Shown one piece after another: positions 48,691-64,000 of a stretch of DNA of 64,000 nucleotides. Every line of letters starts with the position of its first letter. Positions within the stretch are counted from its first letter, which is position 1. The notes under the pieces were generated by a model, which was not told the origin of the DNA, ran no database searches, and saw only the letters and a program-made list of their open reading frames with translations. The position numbers were made by a program, and so were the translations under genes. Source of the stretch: Isoetes taiwanensis (taxonomy: Eukaryota > Streptophyta > Lycopodiopsida > Isoetales > Isoetaceae); NCBI GenBank assembly GCA_021234155.1, contig JAJEKV010000112.1, positions 1,205,032 through 1,269,031 of the forward strand. The letters run 5' to 3'.

Positions 48691-48708
48691 GGTTCGCCCA
48701 GGCGAACC
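48691..48708. repeat. GGTTCGCC/GGCGAACC hairpin, copy 2
   Basis: An 8-bp stem with a 2-base loop, in the short segment between the solo LTR and the chromovirus. It is part of the same older sequence as copy 1. Confidence 0.65.
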
Positions 48709-48736
48709 CACCGGCGGGGGCCATTATTACTGATCC

Positions 48737-50272
48737 TGTGACATTCCAGAATAATATACGGTATGAATCGTATATTATACTAACACATCACTAAATGCAA
48801 TTCGACTCGGGCGACATGTACACGGCGACAAATAAAGGAGTAGTACCTAAGTGCGACCTCGTGAACCATTATATTGCACATGTTAAGGCCACATGTGAAT
48901 ATAATATCCTTTTGCCATGTGGCAATGACCCATTGCCCAAAAGGGACCAACCCTAAATTCGTGGGGATAAAGGGACATAAACCTAAAGGGAAACCCTTTG
49001 GGTTTCCAGCCCCTATAGGTCGATTGGGCGGCATTGGGCCTTTTACCGCTGAGCAGTGGCGGAGAGGCACCGAATTCCCTAGGTTGCGGCTCGATCCAAG
49101 ACCGGCCGACCTCGAGATCGGCCCGGCATGGGCGGCTTTCGGAGGAGGTGGGGCCCGACCAAGAAGCGGGTTAGTGGTTGATCCGATAGTTAGATCGAGT
49201 TTTCAGCACTCATTCGATGGGATTAGTATCCATTCTTAGCTATAGGCGACCTCCTCTGACCCTAAGAATAGACACTAACAAAGAACCTAACCATGTATGA
49301 TTAGGTAGATTAGAATAGATGTATTCTATTATTTTCAGTTTCGTTACGATGATGTTTGACATTCTATCGCCACTCTTGTGTATTGGGAAGGGGGTAGAGA
49401 CCGGAACCCAAATAGTAGTATGATCATAGTTTTAGCCCATTAATTCCCAATTAATGCGGCACGTGCATAAGAGCCCGCCTTTGGTGTGGGTGGCGGAGCT
49501 AGACCCGGCTGATAAGGGAGGGCTTGTCGATCCTGATTGATCCCTCGGTGCATAGCGATGGTAGGGGAACACTGTGGGCTAGGCCTAATACCACGGCGCT
49601 GCGTGCGGGGGGGTATGGGCTCGACACCTCTTGGGTGATGCGTCATCTTCTAGGGGTTCAAGTCGTATCGAAGCGGTGGCTCTCTAGCCCGCTTTGTGAT
49701 TGGCATGAACCTTCGGAGGAGAGTGATCTCCCCCTGCCTCATCGGGAGGCTGGGGAGATGCAACCCGGTAGTAGCCTTTGGCTACGAACCCCAGGCTACG
49801 GTGGGAGCTCTAATACTTTTCGGTCTATACGCAAAGTATGCAGGAGAGAGGCGGATGGAGTGGACTACCCAATGACCATGTTTCTATGCCGGCCAAATCC
49901 ATTTGCCATGAATTCTGCGCATTGTTATCAGGAGACCCAAGCCGTCGGTCTTTCCCCAAGAGTCCGAGCACGGGTAGGTTTTTCCCATGTTATGTTGATG
50001 TACCGATGTGTTGTTGCAGCCTCTTTGCGTGATATGGTGGACCACCCTTCGAGGTGGGTATGTTATTGTTGATTGATGTCATGTGCTGTGTTTACGCTTC
50101 CGCAGCTAGATCGATCCCGAGGGAGACGGGATTAATGACACGTCCATTCTTCCCCGTCGGGTTCTTGCGATATTAGGTGGACGGCCTCATGTCAGCGAGC
50201 AGATGCTAGTTTGAGGGATGATCTCCAGTTTGTATACGATCTGGGCATCGTATAGGAGCTGGGGCCGTCACA
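48737..50272 (+). repeat. Chromovirus 5' LTR (1536 bp)
   Basis: Starts TGTGACATTCCAGAATAATA and ends GGGGCCGTCACA. It matches the 3' LTR throughout with scattered substitutions and indels. Open frames inside it (48874-49239, 49524-50072) are chance frames: they break at different points in the 3' LTR. Confidence 0.95.
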
Positions 50273-50273
50273 A

Positions 50274-50285
50274 TGGTATCAGAGC
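50274..50285 (+). other. Primer-binding site (initiator-Met tRNA)
   Basis: TGGTATCAGAGC one base after the LTR end; used to prime minus-strand DNA synthesis in this class of element. Confidence 0.95.
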
Positions 50286-50527
50286 TTTGATTTTGGCAGA
50301 CCAAGATCGAGCACTGACCGTAATCCTATAGGAACTAACTAATCTAGACATTCAGTCTTGGAGATAAAAGCCCAAGCACGAACCTCGAGTAGTGGATTTT
50401 TTTTTTCCCAGGAATAGAGTTAGTAATTATCTAGAATTAGGATAATTAGAGAACATATTTAAGATGAAATAGTTAGAAGAAAAGTCACCTAAGAAGTCTA
50501 CCAAATTTTAGACACTTTTGGCCGACA

Positions 50528-50593
50528 CCTCTAAGGATGCGCCAGGAGCATGTTAGGTCCAGACCTAACTGGTCTCTTGCGCATGCTTAGAGG
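50528..50593. repeat. 66-bp hairpin repeat, copy 1
   Basis: Outer arms CCTCTAAG/CTTAGAGG, inner arms GTTAGGTC/(A)GACCTAAC, with a GC-rich stretch (gcgccagg; gcgcatg) between. It is the most diverged of five copies. Confidence 0.85.
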
Positions 50594-50740
50594 GGTCACT
50601 CCATATGAACCCTAGAACTCGGCCTTAGGAGCCCCAAATTGTAAAATAAAAGATGAAATTCCACTTAAAAAGCTCTAGTTAGCTAGATTTTTATGTTAAA
50701 ACACAGAAAAACATTGAGTAAAAGTCATTTTGGAGCAACA

Positions 50741-50806
50741 CCTCTAAGGGTGCGCCAGGGCATAGTTAGGTCATGACCTAACACCCTTCTCGCGCATGCT
50801 TAGAGG
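50741..50806. repeat. 66-bp hairpin repeat, copy 2
   Basis: Same structure as copy 1, starting 213 bp after it; inner arms GTTAGGTC/GACCTAAC are perfect. Confidence 0.9.
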
Positions 50807-50957
50807 GGTCCCCTAAAAGTGGCCTCGGAATTTGATCAAAACTTACTCAAATTGTAAAAGTAATGATAGAATCTTGCTGAGAATGCTTAAATTAGTGGGA
50901 AACGCATGTTAATTTGTGTAAATTGGATAAGTTTAGAGCAAAAAAAAAGGGCCAACA

Positions 50958-51023
50958 CCTCTAAGGGTGCGCCAGGGCATAGTTAGGTCTGGACCTAACA
51001 CCCTCCTCGCGCATGCTTAGAGG
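50958..51023. repeat. 66-bp hairpin repeat, copy 3
   Basis: Starts 217 bp after copy 2. It is the last hairpin before the first internal TATA box, 110 bp downstream. Confidence 0.9.
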
Positions 51024-51133
51024 GGTTCGGGAGAAAATAGTTGAAGAAGACCCAGCTTCGATTCGGGATATGGAGGATTTCACCAACAAACCAAGGAAAT
51101 AATCAATTAGACCAAACCCTAAAAATTTAACCC

Positions 51134-51140
51134 TATAAAT
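51134..51140 (+). promoter_or_regulatory. Internal promoter 1: TATA box for the histone H3-like gene
   Basis: TATAAAT preceded by aaaccctaaaaattt, the same upstream phrase as at promoter 2. It lies 111 bp before the ATG at 51245, a normal plant TATA-to-start distance. Three hairpin repeats stand upstream. Confidence 0.65.
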
Positions 51141-51244
51141 TAGTGGACTTAGACCTCATTTCTGGGGTTTCCCACGTTGTTCTTCGAGCTTGTTCCAGTA
51201 GGCGATCTTCTGGCGCCCTGATCCAAATCGATCGCTGTCAAACC

Positions 51245-52358
51245 ATGGCTAGGACGAAGCAGACCGCTCGTAAGATTAGCCACGATGATAAGCCCAAGCG
51301 CCCAAGTCCCGCGCCACGAAAGCGAAACTCAAAGATGTCGAAGAGAAACTGAAGGCCGACATGGAGAGGCGACCTAGATACTACTGAAATCTAGAGAAGA
51401 GGCGGAAGAAGGAGGAAAAGGCAAAGAGGAAAGAAGAGAAGGCAAAGAGAAAGGAGGAGAAGGCAAGAAAGAAAGCAGAGAAAGCAGTCATGGGAGGTCA
51501 AGAAGACCAATGGCGCGAGCAAAGGGCCTAAGAGCGTGGAAGAACACGGCAGAAAGGCAAAGGGTGATGACGACCAGCCCCCGCCGAAGAAGAAGAGGAG
51601 CTCGATTGGCCGGCATCGCCATCGGTGAATGACCAAGGCGACCAACCTTCATCATCGTTTGAGGATTCGTGACGCGCGTAACTTCTTGGAGGAAGTACCG
51701 AGGAACGGAGAATCCTCGCCAAGCACAGCAGAACCGCCATCCCGAGCCGAAGAAGCCCGGGTGAAGAGGGCCAACCTCCAGCCCGTGACCCGGTAATAAT
51801 CACAAAGTTGAACTACCCCGCCTCCACCGCTTCTCGCAATGGCAAGAGGCGAGGAAGTTAGATGCGTAAAAGCAATGCGATAAAGAAGTCGAACAAAACG
51901 CTGGGGACTCATACACCTTAGGGCCGAGAGGAGATATAAGAAGGAGTTAGCAGACTACACGGCATATAAGAAGATGCACACCGAGTACAGTGCCTACTAC
52001 GAGACACACAAGGTAAAATACATTGAAGGAGGGCGGCCAATACGTGAGACATTCCAACTGAAACCTCCACCAGAGCTTCCGGATCCCCCACAGAAGTCAA
52101 TGAAAAGACACTTCCAACGGAGTTACGGATTTCTGATCCCCAGAGCTGCATTCCAGAGATTTGTCCAAAAAATTCTGTGGGAATTCGACCCCAGCAAGCG
52201 AGTAACCAACGACATGTTACTCGCTTTGCAAGAAGCAGCAGAGATGGAGGTGAAAAGACGCCGAAGACTCATTGGCATGCACACTCCACGCAAAAAGAGT
52301 CACTGTGACTCCAAAGGATATGAGACTGGCAAAATACATCAAGAGGATGGATAAATAG
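51245..52358 (+). pseudogene. Histone H3-like gene carried by the chromovirus
   Basis: The ATG at 51245 (context aaccATGGc) opens MARTKQTARKISHDDKPKRP; the first ten residues are identical to histone H3, including Lys4 and Lys9. After a frameshift comes a Lys/Glu-rich helix (about 51380-51490) and an acidic Ser-rich segment. The frame from 51974 gives FLIPRAAFQRFVQKI (H3 alpha-1), then ALQEAAE (52223-52243, identical to H3 alpha-2). After a one-base shift at a five-A run (52292-52296) it gives RVTVTPKDMRLA (loop 2 and alpha-3), ending at TAG 52356-52358. Canonical H3 is about 135 residues; here the linker makes it far longer. At least four frameshifts or stops break this copy. A polyadenylation-like aataat lies at 52414. 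It is not a cellular H3 gene: the linker is foreign and it lies between LTR and gag. Confidence 0.85.
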
Positions 52359-52510
52359 AACAGAAGCTACTTTTTGTAACTAACAAGCTTATATGTAAAG
52401 TGTGAAAATTTTGAATAATAAGGATATATAGTTGTTTAAAATGTGCATTGGAGTAAATATAGTAGCAGTTAAGGAGCAAATGGGAAATTTTGGGTAAAAA
52501 GAGACCAACA

Positions 52511-52580
52511 CCTCTAAGGGTGCGCCAGGGCATAGTCAGGTAGGTCTGGACCTAACACCCTCCTCGCGCATGCTTAGAGG
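52511..52580. repeat. Hairpin repeat, copy 4 (70 bp)
   Basis: Same structure with a 4-bp expansion (aggtaggtc) in the inner arm. It lies after the H3-like gene and upstream of the second accessory gene. Confidence 0.9.
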
Positions 52581-52736
52581 GGTCCAGCCAGCTGGACCAT
52601 TGATCAGCCACTTACCTGCTCCAAGTGCATTAAATAAGCAAACAAACTTGCATTCAGAAGAAAATAAGTATGAATTCACATCTTTAAAATTGTTTTTGGC
52701 ATCCATTGGACATAAAAAGACCAACACCTCCAAGGG

Positions 52737-52802
52737 TGTGCCAGGGCATACTTAGGTCCCAACCTAACACCCTTCTCGCGCATGCTTAGAGGGGTCCGAC
52801 TT
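52737..52802. repeat. 66-bp hairpin repeat, copy 5
   Basis: Starts 226 bp after copy 4, with one change in the outer arm (CCTCCAAG). It precedes the second internal TATA box by about 160 bp. Confidence 0.9.
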
Positions 52803-52959
52803 TCAAGGTCCATAACTTGTGCTAGACATATCCAAATCGGCCAAAATTTATTGCATTAGAACCCTAACACTGTGCTCCAAATTAACCTAGAAACATCAAA
52901 CTTCATCTCAAAATGCCAAAAGTTTTAGAAACCCTAAAAATTTTAGGGTACAAGATCCC

Positions 52960-52967
52960 TATAAATA
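52960..52967 (+). promoter_or_regulatory. Internal promoter 2: TATA box for the acidic-protein gene
   Basis: TATAAATA preceded by aaaccctaaaaatttt, homologous to the segment before promoter 1. It lies 119 bp before the ATG at 53079, and hairpin copies 4 and 5 stand upstream. The arrangement repeats that of promoter 1, suggesting a duplicated regulatory module. Confidence 0.65.
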
Positions 52968-53078
52968 CCCTCATGACCCCTAAACCACACCTATAAAGTT
53001 GCTTCTGCGCCCAAGGCGATCTTCCAGCCTCCTTAAGCGCTTCCAGTTCCGTTTGATATCGACAGCACGCTTCTCCTC

Positions 53079-54312
53079 ATGGCTACATCAACCTTCATCA
53101 GCTGGTACAACGCCTCTCCCCACATTGCTCAGGTAGATGTTAACCTAGTATTCCAACTTTTCCAGAAAGAATTTGACTTGTCGGCAACCCTGAATTCAAA
53201 CCCATTCTACCAACAAGTTCTGCAAGAATTCCAAGAGAAAGTAGCTCCTAGCTTGCAAGAAATACCCCCATGCTTAGGGTACTTTGTACCAAAGACTGTA
53301 TTGCAAACAACCCTTAGTCATATACCCAACATTGCGAAATTGCTGCAGAATAGAACCGAGCACCTACCCAACTACATGACCCCGAAAGCAAGTAGCAGTA
53401 AAGAGATTTTTCTCTTACAACACAGCCTTAGCACTATATTTATTCTATAGGACCCAAACCGTGGTAGGAGAGCCATCAATCCAGCCACTAGAGATCACAC
53501 CCTTGGACTCAGCAGCAGACGAACAACTACTGCTTGAGTACGAGCAGTCCATAGCGGAATCATCCGAAGAAAGTGAGGACTCAGAAGAGCAAAGTGAAGA
53601 TGAAATGGAAGTGGACCCAGAGGAAGAACGCCGTGAAGCAGAACAAGATGTTAGCCGTTTCGAAGCTGACAGGAGCACACCGAGGATAGCACAACCAATC
53701 GGGCTGGGAATAACAAGTCTAGCGCCGATCATAGTCGAAGGGCAGGAATATTTGTTCCTAAACGATATTAAAACCTTCGAATGCGAGGGGCCGGAGGCTA
53801 TCGCATCGGCGAACTCCTCCACCTCGGCAAAGCGGCGGACTTGGAGGATTTCATCGACCAAGAAACAGATGAATTTCCGGTGCAAGTAAGGGGAAGCGAC
53901 CACGCACACAGGACACACAATGTTGACATCGAAGCCTATAGCACTATCGGGAGGCATGATGACGGGAAGAACAACTCCCTACGAGGAGGAGGAGTTTGTG
54001 GCACTCCAAGAGCCGGATGGGAATAAGGGGAAGACAACAAGAGCACTTCAAGCAGAATCTTCTTCACAAGAACCATTACCAACGTTCCTAGGGAGAGCCA
54101 CGAACTTAACAAGTTTAGGAACGCTCTTCCACGATTATGAAGAATTAGTTCAAGTACCGGTTGATCAATATTCATCAAGGCACAGGTCTACCTCAGGAGT
54201 GCGGGGGGACTCTCGCCCCGGAGCATCACTTAAATACTATCTCCCGCTCCTAACAGACGACAGAATAATAGTATGTCATAAGCTTTTCAGCCCAAGTGAA
54301 GAAATTCCTTGA
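53079..54312 (+). pseudogene. Accessory protein with acidic region, unknown family
   Basis: Begins MATSTFISWYNASPHIAQVD. The first 110 residues are hydrophobic/Gln-rich and probably folded (LVFQLFQKEFDLSATL). After a one-base shift near 53420 the frame continues (VVGEPSIQPLEITPLD), followed by a strongly acidic block (about 53540-53640; SSEESEDSEEQSEDEMEVD). Further shifts lead to a C-terminal part ending at 54312. Acidic stretches of this kind occur in histone chaperones, and the neighbouring gene is histone H3-like, so a chaperone role is possible but unproven. It has its own TATA box and a downstream AATAAA at 54391. Confidence 0.6.
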
Positions 54313-54390
54313 GGATCACCCATCCTATCAGTAAATCAATGTAACGGGAACCATGACTATTGTATTAAGTTAATATATCGGCTATATATT

Positions 54391-54396
54391 AATAAA
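54391..54396 (+). terminator. Polyadenylation signal after the accessory gene
   Basis: AATAAA in an AT-rich stretch 79 bp after the accessory stop codon and before gag. It would end an internal transcript; how genomic transcripts pass it is unknown. Confidence 0.5.
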
Positions 54397-54474
54397 AATA
54401 TAAGATCTTTTGAATTGCATTTTAAATGTCTTTTTGATATCTTTGCCTTAACAATCATATCATTCAAACTCTTA

Positions 54475-55786
54475 ATGCAACCAACAAAAGAACTCATGAT
54501 AAATGGTGCCAATGCAATATGTGCAGCTAGAACAGCCAGGAATGTCGAAATTGAACTCCAGGCCCAAGGCGAGCAGACACCACCGGGACAATTCCAGCCT
54601 CGGAATCTGTTCAAAGAGTACTACGCACCGACACCAGAAGAAGAAATCTCGCAGATGAGGTCAGATCTGCAAGAAATAAAAGCCATGTTGGCCAGCAGGG
54701 GAAATAACAGGCAGGACCAGAACGTGCAAGCCCCAGAGGCCCGTTCTCAACACAAGGGGAAAAGAAAGAAAGAGGAGCCACAAGCAGATCTTCTAGCTCC
54801 AGCTCTTCTCGTATTGTGGCGGACTCAAGCTCGAGTCCGAGAAAGAAACGAAAGGACCGCCCGAAGGGAAGAAAGAATAAGGGTAAGTCAGCCAAGCCAA
54901 TCTGACTAGGAAGAAGGTCGACTTCGGCCTTGAGTAACGCTTTGAAAGCCCATAGAAGTTGGAACAGCCCACAAAAACAGATCGGCGATGTTGAAGCATG
55001 GCTAGATGAGATGAGTGAATATGGTACGGTATGAAGGATAAGGATAAGGGCAGAGTCACCACCGCTAACCTGAAGGGGGCAGCCCGTATTTGGTGGAGGG
55101 GCTATGCCAAAGCCCATGAGATGAGCAGAGACAAGTGCAGGTTCACAAAGTTCGCGAAGGCCTTCAAACAACACTATGTGCCCAGAGAGCACAAGTGCCA
55201 TCAGATGCAAGCCTTCCACAGGTTGCAACAGGGGAACAAATCCGTACAGAAATATGCGGAGGAGTTCATGAGGTTGAGGTTTTATGTGCCGAAACTCAAG
55301 AGCGGTGAAAGGCTATGTGGAGGGCTGAATGAGGATCTACGGAAATTAGTCGGCCCCAACCCGGCAAGACGGAGGCCAAGCAAAGGCTAATAAGCTTACA
55401 AGGAACGGGACCCCAGAATAGTGAACCAAAACAGTGGTATGACAAAGGAAAAGGGTATGGAGGCCATAGCCCAAGAGCAACCAGTCCGTCACCTGCTAAG
55501 ACGCCGTACTCGGAAAATCAATGGAAACAGCCAGAGAAAAAGCACGTCAGCTTCAAAGACAAAGGACAAGGGGGAAGCTCAAACTACTCAAAGACAGCAG
55601 TTCCTCAACTCCATTCCGAAAGAAAAACGGCAAGAATGCATAGAAAAGCAGTTGTGCTTCAGATGCTTCCAGCCGGGACATAGAACACACAACTGCCCGT
55701 TCGTGATGAATGCAGCACTTGCGGAGATGGGAGGTTGGGTGACCCCACTAGAAGAAGAGGAGGACGAAGGACGCGACTTTATCCAT
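54475..55786 (+). pseudogene. gag: Chromovirus gag
   Basis: Starts about 54475 (MQPTKELMINGANAICAART). The capsid-type retrotransposon gag domain lies at 55031-55390 (LKGAARIWWRGYAKAH, FKQHYVPREHKCHQMQAF, GNKSVQKYAEEFMRLRFYVP). The nucleocapsid zinc knuckle CFRCFQPGHRTHNC (CX2CX4HX4C) is at 55655-55696. A frameshift separates the N-terminal frame (ends 54909) from the capsid frame, and a stop lies near 55390, so this copy is broken. Confidence 0.9.
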
Positions 55787-56254
55787 GGTGAGTGTCATAT
55801 CTTTGCCGCCATAGATACAGAAAAGGCGGAGGCCCAGTACCAAGTAATATCCACAATTGGTAAGATAGCCGCAAAATCTTTTATAGTCCTCATAGACACC
55901 GGCAGTTCCCACAACTTTGCGTCACCAAGGATGGCCGAAATGCTAAAGTTGAAAACAAGTGAAGTCAAGCCCGGACCCGGTAGTGTTGGAGCAATCAGCA
56001 CATCACTTCCGGCAGAAGGGTGAATTTCAATATAGACTTACCCTCGGGCATCAACATTGAAATGGGGCGTAGATCATGAACATCGGAAAATACGACCTTA
56101 TCATAGGCATGGAATACCTCAACCGAAAAAAGCAAGAATAGATTGTGGGGAGAGAAAGGTGAAGCTCCACTACCAACGGAAAAATTATAGAGATCTCGAG
56201 GTAAGGAAGTAACACCTATAATGCAATGCATGTCGAAAGTAAGAAGTTACTTAG
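55787..56254 (+). pseudogene. Chromovirus aspartic protease
   Basis: The catalytic motif LIDTGSSHNF (Asp-Thr-Gly at 55895-55903) follows the zinc knuckle in the same frame. The frame stops at 56023; the rest of the domain is in other frames, including an IIGMEYL segment. Confidence 0.85.
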
Positions 56255-57180
56255 ATGCATGAAAAGGCAACAAGTTGCATACATCTTCAAATTAGAACTT
56301 GCCGTAAGAAGAGGCACCGGAGGATAAAGAAGATAAATCAAGAAGCAAAGTTACCCAAGCAGATAGCCAAGCTAATAAAGGAGTTCCATGACTTGTTCGC
56401 CGACGAAATCAAGGAACTTCCACCATACAGAGGAGTTGAGTGCGAAATTACACTCGAACCAGACACCAAGCCCACAAGTAAGGCACCATACAGAATGACG
56501 GCCCACGAACTATCAGAATTGAAGAAGCAATTGCAAGAGCTATTAGACCTAGGGTTCATAAGGCCTAGTGTCTCTCCGTTCGGAGCCCCCATCTTATTCG
56601 TCAAGAAGAAAGATGGAAGCTTGAGGATGTGTATTGACTACCGTCAATTAAACAAACACACCATCAAGAACAAGTATGCCTTACCAGAGCAGATGACCTG
56701 ATGGATCAGCTACAAGGTGCCAGGGTCTTCTCCAAAATAGACTTAAGGTCCGGCTATCATCAAATCAGAATCAAGGAAGAAGATGCCCACAAAACGGCGT
56801 TCTGGACAAGATATGGCCACTATGAATTCACGGTGATGCCATTCGGCTTCTCTAATGCCCCAGCAACGTTCATGAGGCTCATGAATGATATCTTTCGGGA
56901 ATTCCTTGACACATTTGTTATCGTGTTCTTCGATGACATTTTGGTGTATAGCAAGTCCCCGGAGGAGCACAGTCGGCATTTGAGAAGGGTACTTGAGAAG
57001 CTGAAGACACCCGACTTTATCTTGAAGTTGTCAAAATGTCATTTTCGCCACCGAAAGAGTAGAATACTTGGGGCATATCATATCGCCAGACGGCATCTCC
57101 ACCGATCCCGCAAAGATCCAAGCGGTGATTGAATGGTCGGGCACCAAAGAACATACACGAGGTGAGAAGCTTTTTTAGGC
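56255..57180 (+). pseudogene. Chromovirus reverse transcriptase
   Basis: Ordered motifs: [67 protein letters not shown] and [10 protein letters not shown] with the catalytic DD at about 56932-56937. One frameshift at 56700 splits it, and another near 57050 breaks the LGH..S region. Confidence 0.92.
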
Positions 57181-57720
57181 TTAGCGGGATATTATAGAAA
57201 GTTTGTCAAGAACTTTGCTAAGATAGCAAGCACCTTTGACTGGACCTCACCAAGGCGTAAAAGATAAAAGACCGGTGGCACATTGGCAAAAGAAGGCTCA
57301 AGCAGGATTTGAGAAGTTGAAGGTAGCCTTAACAACCGCCCGGCCTCTTAACATTGCCGCATCCGAGAAGGACAAACTAGTTGCAACCGATGCTAGCAAG
57401 ATGACGGGAGCAGTCTAATGCAAGAAGAAAATTCGTAGCATACGATTCACGCCAAGATGAACGACGCAGGAGACTTCGCTACGACACATGATCAGGAGCT
57501 ATTGGCGATTGGTAAGAGCTTTAAAGATCTGGAGACACTGTTTATTGGGAAGGAAGTTCCAATTAGATACCGACCACCAGAGTCTACAGTACATTTTCAC
57601 GCAACCATTATTGAATTTAAGACAAAGGAGATGGATGGAGTTCATGGAGGAATACGATTTTGAGATTGTGTACAAGCCAGGGAAACTCAATGTGGTTGCA
57701 GATGCTCTGTCAAGGCATCC
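57181..57720 (+). pseudogene. Chromovirus RNase H
   Basis: The connection segment leads to LVATDASKMTGAV (catalytic Asp near 57388). After shifts come LDTDHQSLQYIF and RRWMEFMEEYDFEIVYKPGK, ending VVADALSRH, the standard gypsy RNase H ending. Confidence 0.9.
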
Positions 57721-59010
57721 CTTAACAACAAGAGTGCATTGCAATGCCATATCAACACTCACCAGTGAGTTTGGCAAGAAAATAGAGGAAACATTGCCAA
57801 CGGACAAGGACTTTCAGGAAGTATGGGCAAGCCTTTCTAAAGAGGCAAGAACGGACAAAGAGAGAGAAACCTTCAAACATTTTAAGAAGGAAGAAAATCT
57901 CTTATACCATAAAGTTGTGTGTGCCAGAATCATCCTGAAGTCGGAAGGTTGATTCTCCATAACACCCATAATTGCCCAATAATAAGCCCGCGGGTTTTAT
58001 TTAAAACCTACTTCAAAATAAGAAGTAGTTACTATTTAGGGCATGAAGAAGCGGATAGCAAGATATATATTCATTGAGTGTCGGCTATGTCAGTGAGACC
58101 AAGCGGAACAACTACGAATTCAGGGGGCACTAGAGCCATTGCCGCATACAAACTCCAAGTGGGAGATGTCGGCCATGGACTTCATTCTGAGGGCTCCCTA
58201 GAACCATAAGGGGCAAAGGCGCTTTAATGGTGCGTAGTCGACAAATTGTCGAAAATGCGCGCACTTTGTGCCTTGTAGGAACACCGACACGGGCTTTGGA
58301 CACAGGTGTGTTATTCAAAGGAGATTTTTAGACTCCATGGAATGCCAAGAAAAATAATCTCTGATCGGGATTCGAAGTTCATGAGTGCATTCTGGCAGGA
58401 TCTCTTCAGCACCATAGGAATGAAATTGTCAATGAACACCTTTTTATCACCCTCGAAGACGGATGGATGGGCGGAGCGCACCAATCGGATACTTGAGGAT
58501 ATGTTGTAGCACTATGTCGGAACAAGCAATCAAAGTGGGATGACTTCATCTACTTGGTTGAGTTTGCATACAATAGCACCAAGCGGGAGTCATCCCAAAT
58601 GTCGTCGTTTATGATCAACTACGGCTATTAGTGCTTGATACCAGACACTTGGCACAACCCTGTGTCCAAGGTAGAATTATCCCAGCAGATGTTAGCCGAG
58701 ATGCAACAATTAGTTGAGGAGGTGCGAGGATACCTCTTAGCGGCAGAAGTTTCCAAAAGAGCATAGATGATCGGCAACGAGCAGTAAGGGGAGTTCAAGT
58801 AGGGGACAATGTGTGGTCAAGATAAAAAGTCAAACAAGCAAAGCTCAAGATCGGCAATTGCAAGAAGCTTGCTCCAAGGTGGGCTGGTCCATTCAAAATT
58901 GTCGAAAGAGTGGGCAACGGCCTACAAATTGGACTTCCCAAAGACACCTAAAGATCCATAGAGTCTTTCACGTAAAGTCTCCTAAAAAAACACACTCTAA
59001 TCCAGAGGAA
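57721..59010 (+). pseudogene. Chromovirus integrase
   Basis: A degraded HHCC region ends with ECRLCQ near 58080. It is followed by QGALEPLPHTNSKWEMSAMD, which holds the first catalytic Asp. The second catalytic Asp is in HGMPRKIISDRDSKFMSAFW (58330-58390) and the TDGWAERTNRILEDML segment follows. Many stops and shifts occur. Confidence 0.9.
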
Positions 59011-59019
59011 GTATTGGAA

Positions 59020-59190
59020 CACCGAGTTTACTTTGGAATTAACGGACGATCAACTTGAGATTGTTCTACGGTTCTTCTCGACCGATCCTATAAGAAGGCG
59101 AGAAGATCTCAATTTCTCCGATTACCTTGTGAAATGGGCACTTACGGTGGAGGGCGCCACGTGGGTACTACAATCGAGATCTTGAGAAGC
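59020..59190 (+). pseudogene. Chromodomain-like C-terminus of the integrase
   Basis: One frame reads LELTDDQLEIVLRFFSTDPI, then DYLVKWALTVEGATW. This matches the chromodomain pattern of chromoviruses (I-L-x-R ... x-Y-L-V-K-W-x-G ... x-A-T-W-E). After a shift it continues with LEKQYPQFMEQC, the usual helix after the domain. In this family the domain is thought to direct integration through chromatin marks, in known cases methylated H3 tails. The aromatic cage cannot be judged with confidence in this mutated copy. Confidence 0.75.
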
Positions 59191-59934
59191 AGTACCCACA
59201 ATTCATGGAGCAATGCAAAGGGTCGGCCTCGTCACCCAAGTGGTCGACTCGAACCGATGGGTGACTGAGGTAACATAGGAGTCTACTTCCGATGCCACGG
59301 AAGTAGTCGAACTTGAGAGAGAAAAGAGGTCATTCGGATGCATGATAGGGAAGCACCTCTAGTCAATGCTTATCAGGGGAAGGATCCTTCACGCCCACCA
59401 CAGGGGAGGACACCAACCTTCATAAAAAAGTAACTAAAGGTGTAGGCATGAGTGTCATCTTAGGCACGATAGGGCTTTCTCTCCCGGCCATGATGGAAGA
59501 AGCATAATCTTCCTATGGAGATATACATTGCATTCATGTAATTGTGTTTAATGGGTGGTTCCCTAACAACCAACCCTTATAATAAGTAATCATGTACTAA
59601 TGTACTGTTGAACCTGCAGGCCAATAGAATGACGAATCGGCGGGAGGTTGCACTACAAGAACTTGTGGCATAGGTAGTCAATAAATGCTACAAGGGACGA
59701 GAACCTTAAGAACAAATTTTATCTTGTTTAATCTTGATATTATAATTAATGTTGAAGTAAGGATTAAATTAAATGCCTTACCACGTGGTGATTGTAAACA
59801 TTTCACTTATAACTTTTAAGTATTATCTTATAATAATTGTGTTAATTGCATGTATCGAAAGAGTTCGATAAGCTTTGTGCAGGGTCGTTCTAAGGTGGGG
59901 AGACAACTCGTGATGCTGCGGACAGCATCAATCC
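59191..59934 (+). other. Chromovirus 3' non-coding region
   Basis: No coding domain is seen after the chromodomain. A polypurine phrase aaggtggggaga occurs near 59892 and again right before the 3' LTR, so a tract-like sequence is duplicated. Confidence 0.5.
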
Positions 59935-59947
59935 AAGGTGGGGAGAA
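59935..59947 (+). other. Polypurine tract
   Basis: AAGGTGGGGAGAA immediately before the 3' LTR start, the plus-strand primer site. Confidence 0.85.
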
Positions 59948-61504
59948 TGTGACGTCCCAGAATAATATACGGTATGAATACGTATATTATACTGACATGT
60001 CATTAGTACATGTCACTCGGGACGACATGTACACGGTATTTGTAAAGGAGTAGTACCACAGGTGCGACCAAGTGAACCATTATATTGCACATGTTAAGGC
60101 CACATGTGAATATAATATCCTTTTGCCATGTGGCAATGACCCATTGCCCAAAAGGGACCAGCCCTAAATTCGTGGGGATAAAGGGACATAAACCTAAAGG
60201 GAAACCCTTTCAGTTTCCGACCCCTATAGGTGGGATTGGAGCAGCATTGGGCCTTTTCGCTGAGCGAAAGAGGAGGAACCAAAATTCCTAGGTTGCATTT
60301 CGATCCAAGACCAAGCCAGCCTCGAGATCAGCAGAACATCACGCTTTAGGAGGAGGTGGGGGAGCCAGCCAAGAAGCGGGTTAGTGGTTGATCCGATAGT
60401 TAGATCCGAAGTTTTCAGCTCTCATTCGATGGGATTACATTATCCATTCTTAGCTATAGGCGACCCCCTGACCCTAGAATAATAGACACTAACAAAAAGA
60501 ACCTAACCATGTATGATTAGGTAGATTAGATGTATTCTATTATTTTCAGTTACATTTGTGATGATGTTTGACATTCTATCGCCACTCTTGTGTATTGGGA
60601 AGGGGGGTAGAGACCCGTAAACCCAAATAGTAGTATGATCATAGTTTTAGCCCATTAATTCCCAATTAATGCGGCTGCCGTGCATAAGAGCCCGCACCGG
60701 TGGGTGGCGGAGCTAGACCGGCTGATAAGGGAGGGCTTGTCGATCACTGATTGATCCCTGCAGTGCGTAGCGATGGCGGGAACACTGTGGGCTAGGCCCT
60801 AATACCACAACGCTGCGTGCGGGGCGGGGTATGGGCTCGACACCTCTTGGGTGATCGTCATCTTCTAGGGGTTCAAGTCGTTTTACGGCGGTGGCTCTCT
60901 AGCCACTTTGTGATTGGCATGAACCTTCGGAGGAGAGTGATCTCCCTCCGCCTCATCGGGGCTGGGGAGATGCAACCCGGTAGTAGCCCCTTTGGCTCGG
61001 GAACCGGAGCGAGCTACGGTCGAGCTCCAATACTTTTCACCCTATCTCGCAAAGTATGCAATGGGAGGGCCGGATGGAGTGGACTACCCAGCGACCATGT
61101 TTCTATGCCGTAAATCCATTTGCCATGAATTCTTAATACGCATTGTTATCAGGAGATCAAAGCGTCAGTCTTTCCCCAAGAGTATGAGCTGGGTGGTTTT
61201 TCCCCATGTTATGTTGATGTCGCGATGTGTTGTTGCAGCCTCTTGTGATATGGTGGACCACTGCCGAGGTGGGTATGTTATTGTTGATTGATGTCATGTG
61301 CTCATGTGTGTTTTACGCTTCCCTGACTTCGTCGATCGAGAGGCGGGATGAATGACCGTCCATTCTTCCCGTCGGGTTCTTGGCCACCGGCAAAGAGCAG
61401 GATATTAGTTGGGCGGCCTCATGTCATTGGCGGAATCTTTGGTTTGAGGATGATCTCCAGTTTGTATACGATCTAGGCATCATTATAGGAGCTGGGCCGT
61501 CACA
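59948..61504 (+). repeat. Chromovirus 3' LTR (1557 bp)
   Basis: Starts TGTGACGTCCCAGAATAATA and ends GCTGGGCCGTCACA, followed by the target duplication GATCC. It differs from the 5' LTR by substitutions and small indels, indicating an old insertion. Confidence 0.95.
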
Positions 61505-61509
61505 GATCC

Positions 61510-62422
61510 GTCGCAAAGTCGTCAGGAGGTCGTCAGTCGTCGAGTTAGCCCACTGCGGGTTAAGCGTAGCCGAACCACCAATGAACCCAAACCGCGATGG
61601 GTTGACCGGCCATAAATGGGTTGTCGGGGTCGGCGCCCGTAAAGCGTGCCATGGCGGGTTCGCAAAAGCGAACCCACCGCGGGAACACCATCGGAAATCG
61701 GAAAATAGCACGGAACCGGAACTGCTGAAAATGAATGCGCTTGTCGGGTTAAGCCCGCCTTCCCGAATCCAATAGTGGGAGCTAATGGCTGGCCAAGGTG
61801 GAAACAATTGCGGTTGCCAAAATGGAAAAAATTGGGTGCCATTAACATGGTGAAGGGTTAAGCCAGAAAAAGCGGGCATATCACACGTTGAACATCTTCG
61901 GCCCGGTGGAAAGATTAAGCCGGCTTAAATCTTCATGAAACCAAAGGGCTATTTATGGTAGCCATGCGTACGTTGTAGCCATTGTGTTCGTTTGGGTGGT
62001 TTTTGCTTGTAGCGGCCAGTGCTAAGCAAAAGTGTGCAAAAGTCGCAGTGCTATATCAGGTGCTTGTTCTGTGTATGTGAACTGTTAGTTGTTGTGTTAG
62101 TTTGGTGTTTGGACACTAGGTTTTGGTGATTTGCTTCATGTTCCCGTTTGATCCTCTGTGTATTGAGGATAGTCTTGAGCTGTATCTTCGATGTTAATAC
62201 CGTTGTTTTATTGATAATGTGTATTGTAGGCACCGCTTGTTGTCCGCAATTGATGCTCACATTGATCTTGTTATGCTGATTATGTTATTTCTCTAGTAAT
62301 TTGGGGGAGATCCCACATGTGTGTGGCTAATGCCCACGTGTATGGACATGGTGTCATTGGGAATTCCCAATGGTCATTATTTTGAATGGTTAGGATTATT
62401 TTTAATTGCGGAGTGGCCGATA
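61510..62422. other. Older sequence interrupted by the chromovirus, no gene seen
   Basis: This continues the sequence left of the element (46037-46190 and 48664-48736). It contains hairpin copy 3 and repeated gggttaagc/gaaccca phrases. Open frames (plus 61380-61775, minus 61424-61879) have no recognised domain. It may be part of a still older LTR element. Confidence 0.4.
61656..61675. repeat. GGGTTCGC/GCGAACCC hairpin, copy 3
   Basis: An 8-bp stem with an AAAA loop, extended by a further GCG/CGC pairing after a small bulge. It is related to copies at 46136 and 48691. Confidence 0.65.
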
Positions 62423-64000
62423 TGTGACGTTTCAAAGACAAGAGATAGCCCGGGGCGATATTGTCTGCCACACGTCCACGCCGCACCCCCCGATTGACGA
62501 TACGCCAACGATAGCCAAGTGGGTAGCCCTAGGGGGCAACTTGCAAGAATGTGCATTAGTATTAATGTGCACATTTTCCAATGTACATTAATGAGGGCAC
62601 ACATTTTCCATGTGGCCACTTGATGCCAAGTGGGCCATACCATGGTGTACTAATGTGCACATTTTCCAATGTACACATTCATTAATGTGCACACATCTCC
62701 ATGTGGGCACATTTGGCCACCTAAGCCTTAAAAAGGCAAGTGGGCCCATTTCCAATTATCCCACATGCCAAGGGGGATAATTGGAAACCCTAGCCAACCC
62801 CTTGTCTATATAGGGTTGGAAACCCCAGCCCCCCCTTGTATATAGGGTTGGAAACCCTAACTAACCCAATTTTAGATTTTTAGGGCTTGAGAACTCGCTT
62901 TTGGTCTGCCCTCAGCGGCCAAAACCGCATGAACTTCTGTGGGAGAATTACAACCTTAGTTTCTCTAGATTCGGCGTTTTGTTGGGATGGTCGAGCTGGT
63001 CGGGGAGGAGCCCCTCAAGGACTAATAGGTATTTGGCCAATTAGATAGTCTAAACCCTATTTTAGTCATTGTATCGTAAGAGGTTTAGCCTATTAGATTG
63101 GCCATGCGTGCCCTCTAGATCCCTAGATAGCGATTCTAACTAAAGAACCTAACTCTATGTGGTAGATTAGATCTTGTTCTTGGGTTCTTATGTGATGTAT
63201 ATGGATGATGTATCTCTATGAACTCCTTGTATTGGGAAGGGGCAGAGACCTAAAGCTTGGTCGATGCTCCTAGAGTAGCCTCTCTAGCACCTTGTAGATG
63301 CCCGCGTGCACAAGAGCACACGGTTGTGGGTGAAGGGGCCGACCGGCTTATAAGGAGGTTCATGTTGGAGCTCTTGAACGACCCCTATGTGGTGTGTTAG
63401 TAATCGGCCGGGGTCACCGTGACTAGGTCTAATGGCTTGCCAACTGCGTGGGCAAGGCATGGGCTCGACACCGTGGGAGGGTGGTGAATATGACCTTCCA
63501 TTGAGTTCAAGTCGGTCTGGGCGGTGGCCCTCTAGTCACCTTGGAGTCAAGATTGTAGATCTTCGGAGGAGAGATCCCTACGCCCCATCGGGAATGGGAG
63601 ATGTAACCCAGATATAGCCCCACCGCCATGCATCCGCGGGCTCTGGTCGAGTCCCAACACTTTTCGGCTACTACGGCAGTGTGTGAGGGGGGGATGGAGT
63701 GGACAACCCTAGGCCATGTTCTTATACCAGCCAAATCCATTGCCATGACTTACGTACCAATGAACTGCGAGACTCCAAGCTTGTAGGTCCATCCCCGTGT
63801 CGAGCCTTGGGTAGGATTCCTATGTGATAATGCTGATCTTCGCTACATGCAGATATGTGGAGGACCATCCTTAGCGATGGTCATGATGATGTATGTGCTA
63901 TCACACGTGTATGTTTACGCTTCAGCGCCTAGGTAGGCCCCGAGGGAGGCGAGGTGCAATGACCTTCCACTCTTCCCACCGGAACGGGTGCGGTTCGGTG
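62423..64000 (+). repeat. LTR of a related gypsy element, cut by window end
   Basis: Starts TGTGACGTTTCAAAGAC and then, from about 63110 on, follows the chromovirus LTR: a cctagatagcgattctaact block, tgtattgggaaggggcagagacc, gggctcgacacc, gttcaagtcg, cttcggaggagag, gatggagtggac and ccaaatccatt, in the same order. It is clearly diverged, so it represents a sister family. Its internal region lies beyond the window. Confidence 0.8.

Follow-up and report, generated by a model that had tools for sequence, protein, structure and literature searches.

The element and its genes

The window we analyzed is a stretch of 64,000 nt from Isoetes taiwanensis, and a complete LTR element of the Ty3/gypsy type spans positions 48737-61504 of it. 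LTR comparison placed the 5' LTR at 48737-50272 and the 3' LTR at 59948-61504, both on the + strand; they are 1536 bp and 1557 bp long, are 85% identical and have the ends TGTGAC...GTCACA. The element is flanked on both sides by GATCC as a target site duplication (48732-48736 and 61505-61509, assigned to neither strand). The primer-binding site, TGGTATCAGAGC, is at 50274-50285 (+), and we take it to be of the initiator Met tRNA type. Pfam found gag (Retrotrans_gag, PF03732) at 55031-55390 (+), and zinc knuckle, protease, reverse transcriptase (RT) and RNase H spread over several frames at 55421-57952 (+). Gag, protease, RT and RNase H are in the gypsy order in the window, and one relative (L010) has all of them in a single frame of 923 aa.

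Our scan for integrase and chromodomain covered two relatives, L025 and L017. An integrase with a C-terminal chromodomain was seen after RNase H: L025 has an integrase core with Chromo (PF00385, E 2.5e-6) behind it, and in L017 Chromo (E 1.3e-9) comes after the SH3-like integrase end. Judged by its LTRs, domain content and gypsy order, and by the integrase and chromodomain of these relatives, the window element is probably a Ty3/gypsy chromovirus. Both chromodomains lack the first and third cage aromatics when set against the group II description in the available part of PMC3350952, so they are unlikely to read H3K9me through the usual cage.

Between the 5' LTR and gag is a gene for a histone H3-like protein, which we call H3L (51245-52358, +, from translation and Pfam). 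It consists of an H3 tail, a charged linker and an H3 fold, and it is broken in this copy. The tail, MARTKQTARK, begins at 51245. The end of the linker and the fold are at 51974-52358 (+), with an open frame at 51974-52354; the remainder of the fold, HAKRVTVTPKDMRLAKYIKRMDK, is in the next frame and leads up to a stop at 52358. The fold frame matches Pfam Histone (PF00125) with E 3.7e-6 and 27.6 bits, for a cut-off of 26.4. The linker is interrupted by stops and shifts of frame, and the fold by a single frame change, which is why the original prediction was made from pieces of several frames. It had claimed an H3-like gene between the 5' LTR and gag of a Ty3-gypsy element, starting with MARTKQTARK and ending in an H3 fold, and the mapped LTRs, primer-binding site, GATCC repeats, gag and Pfam match bear this out.

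Downstream of H3L and before gag is a second gene, ORF2 (53079-54312, +, from open frames and protein comparison), which is also broken here. ORF2 is about 500 aa, is not a recognised gag and is kept in subfamilies A and B of the element (copies include L023, L015 and L024). One relative from outside the copies we read, P0121, is 47% identical over the whole length (8000 candidates scored), and the forms of subfamilies A and B are each 43% identical to it. We found no Pfam match of weight for ORF2, and its AlphaFold model (mean pLDDT 51.4) had no fold match at E <=0.001.

We compared LTRs in the eight other copies that had a 3' stretch, and four gave a long match. In L014 the LTR pieces are 93.3% and 97.1% identical with GAATG at both flanks, in L020 the LTRs are 95.8% identical with GGCAA at both flanks, in L022 they are 93.0% identical and the flanks do not match, and in L024 they are 97.1% identical over the part obtained. 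The match in L015 was 51 bp only, and L010, L013 and L023 had none. Next to the window element, at 63505-63748, two short stretches resemble parts of the LTR (76% and 83%) and may be what is left of a related LTR.

Copies in the host genome

We searched the host genome (1,658,258,908 bases in 1110 contigs) with the fold of the window copy; scoring 150 of 4896 candidates gave at least 209 matches. Further copies were taken as 10-kb stretches (20 copies), 1.65-kb stretches (18) and tail stretches (five). L009-L028 were chosen mostly by long open frames and score, and L029-L046 and L055-L059 by diversity, so the shares of intact copies given here are not genome rates. An uninterrupted frame from tail to fold, 379-406 aa long, was present in 16 of 39 copies (38 relatives and the window, picked and not random). 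Fourteen of these frames start with MARTKQTAR, one with MARRKQTAR and one with MACTKQTTR. In one further copy, L006, the tail was not found by a scan for the amino-acid pattern, and this copy is outside the set of 44 used for the tail below.

Promoter motifs and hairpin repeats

Upstream of H3L is a promoter-like module (51115-51139, +), with a telo-box type AACCCTA at 51115 and CTATAAA at 51133, and the spacing is alike in most copies. We counted motifs in the 34 copies in which the start of H3L could be recognised. As raw counts in the 220 nt upstream, AACCCTA was present in 30, CTATAAA in 30 and TAGGGTT in 24. The distances to the H3L start are nearly fixed, with the TATA box about 112 nt upstream in 30 of the 34. 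Between the primer site and the H3L start there are 6-23 ATGs (13 of 21 stretches, where both were found), so scanning from a start in the LTR is unlikely and we infer internal transcription.

A similar module precedes ORF2 (52930-52965, +), with AACCCTA at 52930, TTAGGG at 52943 and CTATAAA at 52959. The ORF2 start was found in 17 of 21 stretches, and with looser patterns 16 of these have a telo-like motif and all 17 a TATA motif. The regions upstream of H3L (50960-51245) and ORF2 (52800-53079) each have AACCCTA and a TATA motif, and their leaders are alike. Telo-box motifs mark the promoters of ribosomal-protein or cell-cycle type genes, and it looks as if H3L and ORF2 each have their own putative promoter of this type.

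H3L and ORF2 are also both preceded by hairpin repeats on the + strand, three before H3L (50515-50599, 50728-50812 and 50945-51029; z -7.1, -4.2 and -5.5) and two before ORF2 (52498-52582 and 52714-52798; z -3.4 and -2.7). These five 85-nt repeats occur in every one of the 16 stretches from subfamily A and are missing from the five others (L024-L028). At gathering thresholds Rfam had no family matches in 48700-61600, hairpins included, so we rejected a known RNA family as their source.

Structure and relationships of the protein

The uninterrupted copies match H3 more strongly than the window copy does. For L009, which has an H3L of 386 aa, the PDB match to H3.3 has E 8.4e-22 and Pfam Histone has E 4.5e-22. 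The layout is a tail of nine residues, a basic charged linker and the H3 fold. Cellular H3 has about 135 aa and no such linker, so at 379-406 aa the intact frames agree with the earlier claim of a long charged linker that sets the protein apart. The H3 tail is ARTKQTARKS; H3L agrees with it at residues 1-8, has K9 in 24 of 37 copies, and has V, P, T or other residues in place of S10.

In the model of L009 the linker is predicted as one long helix at residues 19-106 (pLDDT block means 58-93), followed by a low-confidence stretch and then by the fold helices. This H3L model, made from 15 sequences, is a weak one with a mean pLDDT of 56.7. With this weak model Foldseek gave 51 matches at E <=0.001, and the 50 listed are all nucleosome or histone-octamer chains with target TM-scores of 0.39-0.53.

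We compared 20 element folds with H3, using H3 numbering. R69, R72, R83, C110, H113, A114, K115, R116, T118, L126 and I130 are invariant in all 20, and D123 is kept in 19. Presumably these are positions of contact with H4, H3' and DNA. R63 is changed to P and K79 to D in all 20, R129 is changed to Y or F in 19, and K56 is changed to R, Q or W. The changes at R129 and R63 could hamper contacts with chaperones or in the nucleosome. L90, which we take to be the residue of plant H3.3, is retained.

In a tree of 97 tips, the 17 element folds group as a single clade with support 0.999. The distances from L027 are 1.35 to H3.1, 1.37 to H3.3 and 1.56 to the plant CENH3 P0040, this being the only CENH3 and on a long branch. 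Capture of a CENH3 is not supported by this comparison, in which L027 is nearer to canonical H3, or by the fold residues.

A search with the whole H3L protein found no full-length relative among the 8000 candidates scored, which were those sharing most words. Among 120 of the 161 matches that were listed, the query coverage was 21-29%, with one at 44%. A further protein search gave 6 matches from 708 candidates; these cover about half of the region searched and all have a Histone domain.

Selection

We calculated dN/dS for 15 uninterrupted frames, 14 of which were found through a MAR.KQTA start, with L035 added. Within subfamily A the values are 0.050 for the fold, 0.17 for the linker and 0.014 for the tail, and within subfamily B they are 0.106, 0.23 and 0. 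In the comparison of A with B, synonymous sites are saturated (pS of 0.76-0.96 by region, with 0.76 for the tail and 0.96 for the fold), and pN is 0.004 for the tail, 0.20 for the fold and 0.46 for the linker. The tail values of dN/dS are biased down because 14 of the 15 frames were detected by their intact tail start. The safer evidence for selection is the value for the fold, at 0.05-0.11 far below 1, and a set of tails that includes broken copies.

For this set we looked for the tail in 44 copies with no filter for intact frames and found its start in 37. Two of the copies dropped had no tail that we could see (L010, L018), three had remnants of a broken tail (L039, L043, L045), and in two the stretch obtained seems to miss the tail (L056, L059). 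A1, K4 and Q5 are kept in all 37, T3, T6 and A7 in 35, R8 in 33 and R2 in 31. The R2 losses are in L034, L036, L037, L044, L046 and L058, where TGC, TGA, CAC, CAT or CAA replaces CGN, and they look like the decay of methylated CpG in dead copies.

Tail and fold are common to subfamilies whose synonymous sites are saturated, so H3L is under selection. We rejected a chance match or a one-off pseudogene or insertion of a cellular H3, given the many copies, the uninterrupted frames, the dN/dS far below 1 and the single clade of element folds. What we have is an LTR retrotransposon family with a captured H3 gene that has long been kept by purifying selection. The central claim of the original prediction, that an LTR retrotransposon encodes a histone H3-like protein, is thus supported by the data overall, and none of the three outcomes it had listed as counter-evidence came about. 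We are nearly certain that H3L is a selected, element-encoded H3.

Lysine 9

Residue 9 is K in 24 of the 37 tails, I in six (L033, L036, L037, L040, L044, L055; codons ATA, ATC and ATT), M in three (L011, L012, L058) and V in one (L027), and in three more the reading, through frame breaks, is a different one (L030, L034, L046). With K9 in 24 of 37 tails, its loss is not general. Copies without lysine fall in three places of a fold tree of 39 sequences, which is based on a short stretch: L011 and L012 with M in subfamily A; L033, L027, L044 and L037 with I or V, together with the broken L046; and a further I group of L036 and L040. If K is ancestral, it would have been replaced three times, always by an aliphatic residue. 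Alternatively, the ancestral residue may have been aliphatic and K regained in part of the tree. The frame is uninterrupted in none of the three M copies, in one of the six I copies (L036, which carries two other tail changes, MACTKQTTR) and in the one V copy.

Possible functions

Since constraint is strongest on residues 1-8 and the full H3 fold is kept, H3L should appear H3-like both to tail enzymes and readers and to chaperones and chromatin. Retroelements of this kind are silenced through H3 marks, and an anti-silencing variant or mimic is therefore the most economical role. The best explanation overall, to which we give about an even chance, is that H3L, as a variant or mimic of H3, engages enzymes of the H3 tail and weakens silencing by H3K9 methylation. 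That anti-silencing is the role of H3L is a claim we hold at slightly under even.

The mechanism we propose is as follows. H3L would be expressed from its internal promoter, its fold would pair with H4, and it would enter chromatin or the pre-deposition histone pool, chiefly on the element's own DNA. The linker, which replaces the K27 stretch of H3, would present the N-terminus to enzymes and readers of residues 1-8, including lysine 4. Forms with K9 would be a competing substrate at lysine 9, and K9M, K9I and K9V forms would escape methylation and might act as a trap for the methyltransferase. As a net result, the element's chromatin would stay open and silencing by H3K9 methylation would be blunted. 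A plant DNA virus protein that inhibits SUVH4/KYP is described in the available part of PMC4606454. What speaks against this explanation is the K9 retained in 24 of 37 tails, the scarcity of uninterrupted frames among the M and I copies, the changed R129 and R63 of the fold and the weak H3L model.

A stronger version would make H3L a retroelement "oncohistone": with residues 1-8 kept and K9 changed to I, M or V in several lineages, the tail would trap or starve the host H3K9 methyltransferase and free the element from heterochromatin, and the fold would place H3L in the element's chromatin. We put this forward tentatively and think it somewhat improbable. Changes of K to I trap like changes of K to M. 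In fission yeast, according to the part of PMC5030085 at hand, H3K9M traps Clr4 and blocks H3K9 methylation and K9R has little effect, so the K9M and K9I forms are the boldest and least supported part of the proposal.

Among the alternatives, H3L could stay outside nucleosomes and titrate the binders of H3 residues 1-8, such as LSD1-type K4 demethylases and K4 readers, with the fold only binding chaperones. In favour of this, conservation of the tail peaks at residues 1-8, K4 being present in all 37 tails, and the fold is altered at R129 and R63. A free decoy would also suit Arabidopsis, where H3K9me2 leads to the removal of H3K4me1 via LDL2 (PMC13157976, in the part available). However, 19-20 of the 20 folds retain the residues that make the H3-H3' and DNA contacts, which is beyond the needs of a decoy, and we consider a free decoy unlikely.

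H3L could also package the element, condensing its cDNA or RNA in the particle or the pre-integration complex, with H4 or alone. The basic, charged linker and the retained DNA-contact residues would fit this, but it leaves the nearly letter-by-letter retention of MARTKQTAR unexplained, and the H3L gene is separate from gag with TATA and telo-box motifs of its own. We therefore think packaging distinctly unlikely.

The original prediction had also listed guiding of integration, in which H3L would mark chromatin for the chromodomain of the element's integrase to read. Relatives do have Chromo after the integrase (L017 and L025), but the two chromodomains read lack the first and third cage aromatics of the available PMC3350952 description, and 10 of 37 tails have lost K9, which makes this role less likely; we regard it as very doubtful. 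Of the roles listed there, a decoy or the marking of the element's own chromatin appears from sequence to fit best.

That H3L is a functionless captured H3 fragment copied along as a passenger is barely credible: the window copy is broken, and captured H3 of fungal hAT elements is inactivated in Pseudocercospora and relatives (PMC6710886, in the part available), but dN/dS is far below 1 with saturated synonymous sites, our sampling bias for open frames cannot explain the amino-acid conservation, divergent subfamilies have uninterrupted frames and the promoter motifs are kept.

If H3L is an anti-silencing variant or mimic, this would be direct histone mimicry in genome conflict, by an element that maintains and diversifies an H3 gene of its own under strong selection, and the natural lysine 9 variants make the idea testable. 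A core histone can turn into a long-term accessory gene of a retroelement. Should the "oncohistone" proposal be true, H3L would be the first core histone encoded by a retroelement and, in genome conflict, a natural inhibitor of the K9M/K9I type.

Comparison with known systems

Core histones are encoded by viruses, for example the histone H4 of bracoviruses, which has an extended tail, and the histones of giant viruses. As in these, a genetic parasite carries a core histone here, and bracovirus H4 shares the extended tail with H3L, but both the histone and the kind of parasite are different.

We know of no gene like H3L or ORF2 between the 5' LTR and gag of described chromoviruses. As far as the available text of PMC3350952 goes, the window element and its relatives resemble the plant chromodomain Ty3/gypsy elements in having LTRs, a primer-binding site, gag-pol order and an integrase with a chromodomain behind it, which the missing cage aromatics place in group II. 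H3L and ORF2, the additional genes between the 5' LTR and gag, set them apart from those elements.

The literature we searched, which leaves most subscription journals outside its coverage, yielded no retroelement-encoded histone, and neither did our protein searches among their limited candidates. This agrees with the original prediction, whose author knew of no retroelement gene like it. The word "histone" is absent from the main text of the I. taiwanensis paper, in the part available (PMC8566536), and likewise from the main text of the paper on I. sinensis (PMC10541799) and of a review from 2026 on gene capture in plants (PMC13317346).

That SET-domain enzymes can be trapped by a tail with a residue other than lysine at the target position is known from the histones H3K9M and K27M and from EZHIP (PMC5030085 and PMC6513997, both in the parts available). 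H3L is like them in having an H3-like tail with a non-lysine at the target position in 10 of 37 copies. Those cases are engineered, from tumours or cellular, whereas trapping by H3L is our inference and would apply to this minority of copies.

The closest precedent is the H3 captured by fungal hAT DNA transposons. In the available part of PMC3538342, the hAT H3L of Pyrenophora tritici-repentis has insertions in the tail, ESTs exist, and the copies are nearly identical and recent. The part of PMC6710886 available describes H3L in hAT transposons of Pseudocercospora, Cercospora and Sphaerulina, with the Pseudocercospora copies inactivated by RIP. As in those fungi, a mobile element carries and multiplies an H3-like gene here. 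The window element is not a fungal-type hAT element, as it ends in LTRs and encodes RT. Compared with those DNA transposons, as described in the available parts of both papers, ours is a retroelement with divergent subfamilies and saturated synonymous sites, in which tail and fold are kept. H3-like genes on mobile elements are thus already known from the hAT elements of fungi.
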